Assembly (NCBI GenBank): GCA_017443595.1
Contig: JAFSYU010000040.1
Span: 62,001 to 126,000, forward strand
DNA length: 64,000 nt
Direction: 5' to 3'
From: Clostridia bacterium
GTDB taxonomy: Bacteria > Bacillota > Clostridia > Oscillospirales > CAG-272
The notes under the pieces are model-generated. The model was not told where the DNA came from and ran no database searches. It saw nothing but the letters and a program-made list of their open reading frames with translations. Of the stretch, positions 33,149 to 34,111 are shown piece after piece; within the stretch, counting starts at the first letter, position 1, and every line of letters begins with the position of its first letter. A program made the translations under genes and the position numbers.

Positions 33149-33177
33149 TTGACAAGCGGCAAAAAATATGATATGAT
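33149..33177 (+). promoter_or_regulatory. Promoter of the candidate small RNA
   Basis: TTGACA at 33149-33154, 17-base spacer, TATGAT at 33172-33177; start site predicted at about 33184, the first G of helix P1. Confidence 0.75.
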
Positions 33178-33183
33178 GAAACT

Positions 33184-33334
33184 GCGACGTAATTACAACT
33201 TAATAATATGACACAGAGAAACATGTATGGCAACTGTACATGCTCTTTTCACTTTCTCTGTGTCAGATTTTGTGATTGCGTCGCGGCATGAGCCATGTAT
33301 GTTGCAGTGCGTGGCCTTGTGCCGCGCACTTTTT
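33184..33334 (+). ncRNA. Candidate structured small RNA of unknown class, about 150 nt
   Basis: Helix P1 pairs 33182-33198 with 33270-33286 (17 contiguous pairs, three of them G-U). Helix P2 pairs 33209-33221 with 33253-33265 (13 Watson-Crick pairs). P3, 33222-33227 with 33237-33242, stacks on P2, and its 9-base loop (GCAAC, 33230-33234) can pair with GUUGC at 33301-33305, a pseudoknot to the 3' tail. An intrinsic terminator, 33307-33315 with 33321-33329 plus TTTTT, ends the transcript. A consensus promoter starts it exactly at P1. No accepted gene follows, because the terminator of the convergent yigZ gene does, so it appears to be free-standing. Length and bubble shape do not fit 6S or SRP RNA. 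Confidence 0.7.
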
Positions 33335-33340
33335 GATTTT
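33307..33340 (+). terminator. Terminator of the small RNA
   Basis: GTGCGTGGC/GCCGCGCAC, 9 pairs with one G-U, loop CTTGT, followed by TTTTTGATTTT. Confidence 0.8.
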
Positions 33341-33404
33341 GAAACGGATCTCATCATGAAATACAGATTGTCAAAACGTAAATTAAAGAATAAAAAGTAC
33401 AAAA

Positions 33405-33452
33405 TAAAAAAGGAAAAAGACATCATTGCGGAAAACACCGCAAAAATGTCTT
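33405..33452 (-). terminator. Terminator of the rpmE-hflX-yigZ run
   Basis: On the minus strand AAGACAT and GCGG pair with CCGC and ATGTCTT across a small internal loop, followed by TTTTTCCTTTTTT. It lies 36 bases after the yigZ stop. Confidence 0.75.
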
Positions 33453-33487
33453 CTTTTATGAAAGATGTGATAGATATCGTCCTAAAA

Positions 33488-34111
33488 TCATAAGCCCATC
33501 TGCGTGCCTGTGACGTTTATTTTAGCTTTTGCCGCCGTTATTTTCGTTATCCGGTCTGTTAACGCGTCTGTCTGCTCCTCGGGAACGAGCAGATGAAAAG
33601 TGACCGCGTCAAGATACTCCGTTTGAAACTCCGGCAGATCCATGCGGGTCAGCTCGTATTTTACGCGCTCCGCGTCGGAAAAAGATACGGTTATATCAAC
33701 TTTAGTATACGGTTTTACCGTTATCACTCCCGCTGCCTCGACTCCGTCCGCGGCGGCTTTTGTATACGCGCGCAGAAGTCCCGCGGCGCCGAGCAGTATG
33801 CCGCCGAAATACCGCGTTACAACGACCGCCGCGCCGCAAAGCTGCTGCTTTTGCAAAACGCCCAATATCGGCAGTCCCGCCGTGCCTTTCGGCTCGCCGT
33901 CGTCGCTGTATCTCGTCATCCCGTCAAGCGTCAGATACGCGTAGCAGTTGTGGCGTGCGTCCGGATATTTTTTTCTTACGCTCAAAACAAACTCACGCGC
34001 ACATTCGTCGTCCGTCACGGGTGAAACGGTTGCTATGAATCTTGATTTTTTTTCAATATACTCCGCCTCTGCCGGACGGCACACGGTCTTATACGGCTTA
34101 AATTCGTCCAT
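33488..34111 (-). CDS. yigZ: YigZ/IMPACT family protein
   Basis: 207 residues. The N-terminal UPF0029 (Impact) domain shows AEYIEKKSRFIATVSPV, ARHNCYAYL, DDGEPKGTAGLPIL and RYFGGILLGAAGLLRAYTKAA; a C-terminal ferredoxin-like domain (about 135-205) follows. Eukaryotic Impact affects the Gcn2 stress pathway; the bacterial role is unclear but may touch translation. It follows hflX by one base on the same strand. Confidence 0.92.
   Translation of the reverse strand: MDEFKPYKTVCRPAEAEYIEKKSRFIATVSPVTDDECAREFVLSVRKKYPDARHNCYAYLTLDGMTRYSDDGEPKGTAGLPILGVLQKQQLCGAAVVVTRYFGGILLGAAGLLRAYTKAAADGVEAAGVITVKPYTKVDITVSFSDAERVKYELTRMDLPEFQTEYLDAVTFHLLVPEEQTDALTDRITKITAAKAKINVTGTQMGL

Follow-up and report, generated by a model that had tools for sequence, protein, structure and literature searches.

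The window, a stretch of 64,000 nucleotides from a Clostridia bacterium, contained on its plus strand between positions 33149 and 33340 a structured RNA with its own promoter and terminator, followed by a 45-codon open reading frame (ORF) and the convergent yigZ gene (Table 1). The RNA was composed of a long rod of two helices, P1 and P2, an apical hairpin, P3, a tail and an intrinsic terminator. Transcription is expected to begin on the first base of P1 or only a few bases away from it. All of these elements, including a P1 of 17 bp and a P2 of 13 bp, had been described in an earlier note on this DNA and were found again in the sequence and the fold; the terminator ended in the expected run of five U, and its stem comprised 10 bp instead of the 9 bp given there. 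The minimum free energy of the RNA (33182–33340) was −70.7 kcal/mol, compared with −39.8 ± 3.9 kcal/mol in shuffled sequences (z = −7.96), and none of 200 shuffles folded equally well. The terminator contributed a stem of −17.7 kcal/mol. The outer part of P1 (33182–33191 and 33277–33286; UGCGAC.../...GUCGC) was conserved in sequence beyond what a helix needs, and the AAUA on the 3′ side of the P1 5′ strand was conserved yet unpaired. Both are a possible recognition site.

Table 1. Features of the RNA locus in the window.
Feature	Position	Strand	Description and basis
Promoter	33149–33177	+	−35 TTGACA (33149–33154), −10 TATGAT (33172–33177), extended −10 TG, spacer 17 nt; sequence and homologues
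P1 5′ strand	33182–33198	+	Pairs with 33270–33286; fold and covariation
P2 5′ strand	33209–33221	+	13 bp with 33253–33265; fold
P3 apical hairpin	33222–33242	+	Strands 33222–33230 and 33234–33242; fold and own-versus-foreign strands
Apical 3′ segment GCAACTGTACATGCTC	33230–33245	+	Pseudoknot partner of the tail; own-versus-foreign strands and pair counts
P2 3′ strand	33253–33265	+	Fold
P1 3′ strand	33270–33286	+	Fold and pair counts
Tail	33287–33305	+	Pairs either with 33230–33245 (pseudoknot) or, through 33292–33300, with 33307–33315 (antiterminator); covariation
Intrinsic terminator	33306–33334	+	10-bp stem 33306–33315/33321–33330, then U run; sequence, energy and covariation
45-codon ORF	33356–33493	+	Behind the leader; conserved in two relatives; codon-position differences
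yigZ	33488–34111	−	Convergent; its end is overlapped by the 45-codon ORF

The earlier note had seen no plus-strand gene next to the RNA, only the terminator of yigZ. The 45-codon ORF does follow, with the yigZ terminator hairpin lying inside it. Two relatives had the ORF in the same place behind the RNA, G003 with 77% identity and G007 with a weak 39%. The differences from G003 at codon positions 1, 2 and 3 were 7, 8 and 21, respectively, and 7, 7 and 15 when the yigZ hairpin was left out. From this pattern the ORF probably codes for a protein and is the probable target gene of the leader. Its Shine-Dalgarno sequence was weak in the window and better in the relatives. Both the ORF and the hairpin of the opposite strand within it were seemingly conserved in G003.

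None of the Rfam 15 covariance models, including those of 6S, SRP, tmRNA, T-box and known riboswitches, matched the RNA at gathering or permissive thresholds; this search had been proposed in the earlier note, which had already judged the shape unlike 6S, SRP or tmRNA. The RNA resembles 6S RNA in length and in its long closing stem. A separate 6S candidate was located in the same genome (G000:C22:952–1186), with a score of 31.7 bits, below the 46.4-bit cut-off.

Homologues were found in relatives, as the note had also suggested looking for, with compensatory changes in P1 and P2. A DNA search gave two close copies, with 83 and 78% identity, each in another genome of the same genus; a third genome matched in part, with a P2 of unrelated sequence that kept its pairing. 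Beyond four genomes, the nucleotide matches were mostly chance matches to the promoter, and covariance models were therefore used. One extra copy, in G005, came from a search with the pattern of the P1 3′ strand. The first model, R1, was made from four copies, with base pairs in P1 and the terminator only, and matched 81 of 196 genomes of the family (E <= 0.1), often several times per genome. Folding of 34 R1 matches gave P1, P2, the apical hairpin, the tail and the terminator in all except L089, a weak match without the rod. The second model, R2, was built from 25 copies (alignment A4). At E <= 1e-3 it had matches in 139 of the 394 genomes that represented the order and in 78 of the 291 that represented the class. 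In a phylum-wide sample of 299 genomes, which doubles as a false-positive control, the home genome was the sole match at E <= 1e-5.

When more candidates were scored per genome, 28 copies were counted in G820, the maximum found, and 25 in G786. The home genome contained a second copy (C38:343–510), 29 nt upstream of an ORF whose product has zinc-ribbon-like cysteines. Tandem units, 46–153 nt apart, occurred at 16 places among the collected loci (a few counted twice), and close tandems had promoter-like sequence in the spacer. Nearly all named records carrying the RNA were uncultured gut or rumen Clostridia (Oscillospiraceae, Ruminococcus, Monoglobus and Ruminiclostridium), which may be the reason that it escaped cataloguing. 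The RNA gave no match in the plasmid database PLSDB and lay on only three phage-labelled contigs. Two of these copies, L347 (2076–2230 of MT835845.1, human faeces) and L306 (10054–10210 of an IMG/VR contig), were located upstream of lipoprotein-like genes and represent either phage carriage or mislabelling. Copies within about 1.4 kb of tRNA genes (L075, L103, L118, L127, L137 and L141) or of an RNase P RNA gene (L134) were also observed, and these neighbourhoods are possibly insertion hot spots. In L088 (379–530, minus strand, G005:C101), the P1 5′ strand overlapped the −10 element of the best promoter, so that the transcript may lack a P1 helix; this copy may be decayed or use a different start.

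The RNA had been called free-standing in the earlier note. This description did not hold for the homologues, which preceded Shine-Dalgarno-led ORFs at a median distance of about 22 nt, nor for the focal copy, which precedes the small ORF. A Shine-Dalgarno-led ORF began within 150 nt in 130 of 171 distinct copies, and 105 of these ORFs were 10–39 nt from the terminator. By the same simple rule, no such ORF was seen behind the other 41 copies, some of which were the upstream members of tandems. A signal- or membrane-like start was assigned by a crude rule to 76 of the 130 encoded proteins. Among 112 targets compared with Pfam, 21 were BspA-type leucine-rich-repeat proteins (LRR_5), five were AMP-binding enzymes and four were helix-turn-helix proteins; zinc ribbons and M23 and CHAP peptidases were also present. 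The targets shared no common pathway that would name a ligand. Many copies in G820 and G786 were located upstream of LRR-like surface proteins and small regulators, the latter with an AbrB-like start and a zinc-knuckle-like end, names that are a reading of the sequences. Five of these loci (L338, L320, L322, L344 and L328) preceded near-identical small proteins of this type, with a CxxC zinc-knuckle-like end. The AbrB-like small proteins could be regulators within the same circuit.

The promoter and the paired regions were preserved throughout the family. The upstream columns of 95 copies contained a single promoter, TTGACA and TGnTATAAT, at a constant distance from P1. The sequence and length of P2 varied freely, and the conserved segments of the apical region were GGUAAAA and CUC. 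In a scan of all column pairs, the top signals came from the terminator, antiterminator, P1 and pseudoknot with 25 sequences, and from P1, antiterminator, terminator, P2, pseudoknot and P3 with 95 sequences. Only P1 and the terminator were base-paired in the search and alignment models; because the pseudoknot, antiterminator, P2 and P3 were left unpaired, their covariation is not circular.

Pair counts over the 95 sequences gave 95.2% of cells paired for the combination of P1, pseudoknot and terminator, with both-sided changes in 28 of 35 pairs; none of 500 shuffles was as high, and slid partners were 30–63% paired. For P1 with the antiterminator, 92.8% of cells were paired and both sides had changed in 20 of 29 pairs, again with no shuffle of 500 as high. 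In P1 itself, both sides had changed in 12 of 13 pairs. Because these shuffles ignore relatedness, a second comparison, on 121 non-redundant sequences, set the two strands of each copy against strands taken from other copies. The pseudoknot was stronger with own than with foreign strands (−15.1 vs −11.2 kcal/mol, p = 2e-29), as was the antiterminator (−13.0 vs −10.8 kcal/mol, p = 2e-11). P1, P2, P3 and the terminator all gave p < 1e-22 (P2, 4e-47; P3, 4e-23). Wrong-partner controls showed no difference (p = 0.23–0.59); the comparison keeps shared ancestry, yet the controls share that ancestry too and were flat.

The complementarity of loop and tail recognized in the earlier note (about 33230–33245 with 33290–33305) is thus genuine and covaries among homologues. 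Its proposal that this pseudoknot competes with the apical stem in a switch-like design is consistent with the covarying alternative pairings. The note had overlooked that the tail can also pair with the terminator's 5′ half; this antiterminator would make the pseudoknot regulatory. A further pairing that it had proposed, between the P1 3′ strand and the terminator 3′ strand (33282–33287 with 33321–33326), is complementary as described, but it covaried weakly and little beyond the conserved sequence (p = 0.014, against 0.23–0.59 for the wrong-partner controls).

The tail motif GAGNN complements either NNCUC behind the apical hairpin or the matching stretch in the 5′ half of the terminator. The tail has one partner at a time, and so does the 5′ half of the terminator; therefore, termination is expected with the pseudoknot and antitermination with a free tail. 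The antiterminated fold (−70.7 kcal/mol) and the forced-terminator fold (−69.2 kcal/mol) of the focal copy differed by 1.5 kcal/mol, and its pseudoknot duplex was calculated at −14.4 kcal/mol compared with −9.8 kcal/mol for P3. Family averages were −16.8 kcal/mol for the terminator and −12.5 kcal/mol for the antiterminator; with the terminator the more stable, the outcome would have to be set during transcription or by a factor. The preference for the terminator at equilibrium would argue against an attenuator unless folding order or a factor helps the antiterminator.

Both features expected of a leader, a short same-strand distance to a gene and a terminator with a mutually exclusive antiterminator, were found. 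The RNA is thus likely, judged from sequence comparison, to be a class of cis-acting, riboswitch-like leader that attenuates transcription and is absent from Rfam. We infer that the choice between the two pairings decides between on and off while the RNA is being transcribed, with the antiterminated state on and a small molecule or protein tipping the balance. Transcription would start from the leader's own promoter at about the first base of P1, and P1 and P2 would form a long rod presenting P3, the 3′ strand of which continues into NNCUC. Next would come the tail, with its two alternative partners. If it were captured by the apical 3′ strand, breaking P3 to form the pseudoknot, the terminator would form and the gene would be off. 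If the apical strand were kept in P3 or occupied by a signal, the tail would pair with the terminator 5′ strand, and this antiterminator would block the terminator and let RNA polymerase enter the ORF about 20 nt on. A small molecule or protein bound at the apical region would tip this balance. A full riboswitch class, in which a signal at the apical loop chooses between the pseudoknot (off) and the antiterminator (on) and places dozens of surface and accessory genes of gut and rumen Clostridia under shared, copy-rich control, is a plausible but tentative reading.

The leader may instead be controlled by an RNA-binding protein, which would bind the conserved P1 or the apical region and block the pseudoknot in place of a small molecule. 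This explanation is possible, though somewhat doubtful. The invariant positions of P1 exceed the need for base pairing, few conserved unpaired positions suggest a ligand pocket, and no metabolic theme is common to the targets; on the other hand, no candidate protein was found, with LoaP tested. LoaP-dependent leaders mediate antitermination in Clostridia and their relatives through a structured leader, and the RNA resembles them in its structured leader and predicted antitermination. LoaP exceeded the curated cut-off in none of 24 RNA-carrying genomes and in five of 14 genomes in which no copies were detected, which argues against LoaP as the factor.

A free-standing, trans-acting small RNA of about 150 nt, acting on other RNAs or on a protein, with the genes behind it incidental, is improbable. 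The promoter and strong terminator of each unit, the promoter-like spacers of the tandems, the conserved parts of P1 and the copies lacking an obvious ORF would suit such an RNA, but most copies are tightly spaced to Shine-Dalgarno-led ORFs of unrelated genes, and a covarying antiterminator serves no role in a plain small RNA. As a terminated leader would likewise yield a short RNA, the two could not be told apart by a Northern band alone. A fixed attenuator or promoter cassette that spread as a repeat and holds accessory genes at low basal expression, with no switch, would account for the up to 28 copies per genome, the tandems, the few phage-labelled contigs and the very mixed targets, but it is quite unlikely, as fixed attenuation requires a terminator only and a decaying repeat would keep neither pairing, whereas both exclusive tail pairings were kept by compensatory change in 121 non-redundant sequences.

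The attenuating leader shares with terminating riboswitches and other attenuator leaders a structured 5′ region, terminator and antiterminator alternatives, and nearness to a start codon. It differs from them in having no Rfam match, a tail that chooses between pseudoknot and antiterminator, a promoter in fixed register and tens of copies per genome. No description of the RNA was found in a full-text literature search; an unnamed candidate in the supplements of large screens (e.g. PMC8040213) is possible. Of the published ideas found, the SLH motif comes nearest; it was described as a riboswitch candidate and putative leader of S-layer protein genes (Stav et al. 2019, PMC6429828). It was reported from Synergistaceae, Clostridia and Negativicutes, and about 60% of its examples precede genes for S-layer-homology proteins. 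Both RNAs occur in Clostridia as putative leaders of surface-protein genes; the targets here contained SLH in one of 112 and LRR_5 in 21. Judged against the published description of the motif (PMC6429828), the two differ in their targets but may still overlap. A cell-wall-related signal, e.g. c-di-GMP, was suggested in the account of that motif (PMC6429828). For the RNA studied here, c-di-GMP is an unlikely signal: no GGDEF match was found in G572 (seven copies, 97% complete), G629 or G633, although the RNA-carrying genomes without GGDEF are incomplete by a few per cent. G820 was also absent from the list of GGDEF-matching genomes.

The RNA family, with its covarying and mutually exclusive pairings, is real: a widespread and uncatalogued leader whose cis-acting attenuator function is predicted from the sequences. 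It is carried by roughly a quarter to a third of the Clostridia genomes sampled, in some of them in 25–28 copies, yet has no Rfam entry. It suggests that gut and rumen bacteria possess a regulon of surface proteins, lipoproteins, acyl-AMP ligases and small regulators, which can now be listed by model search, and the three-way pairing gives direct predictions for mutants. The signal, once found, could reveal a global cue in these hard-to-culture bacteria.
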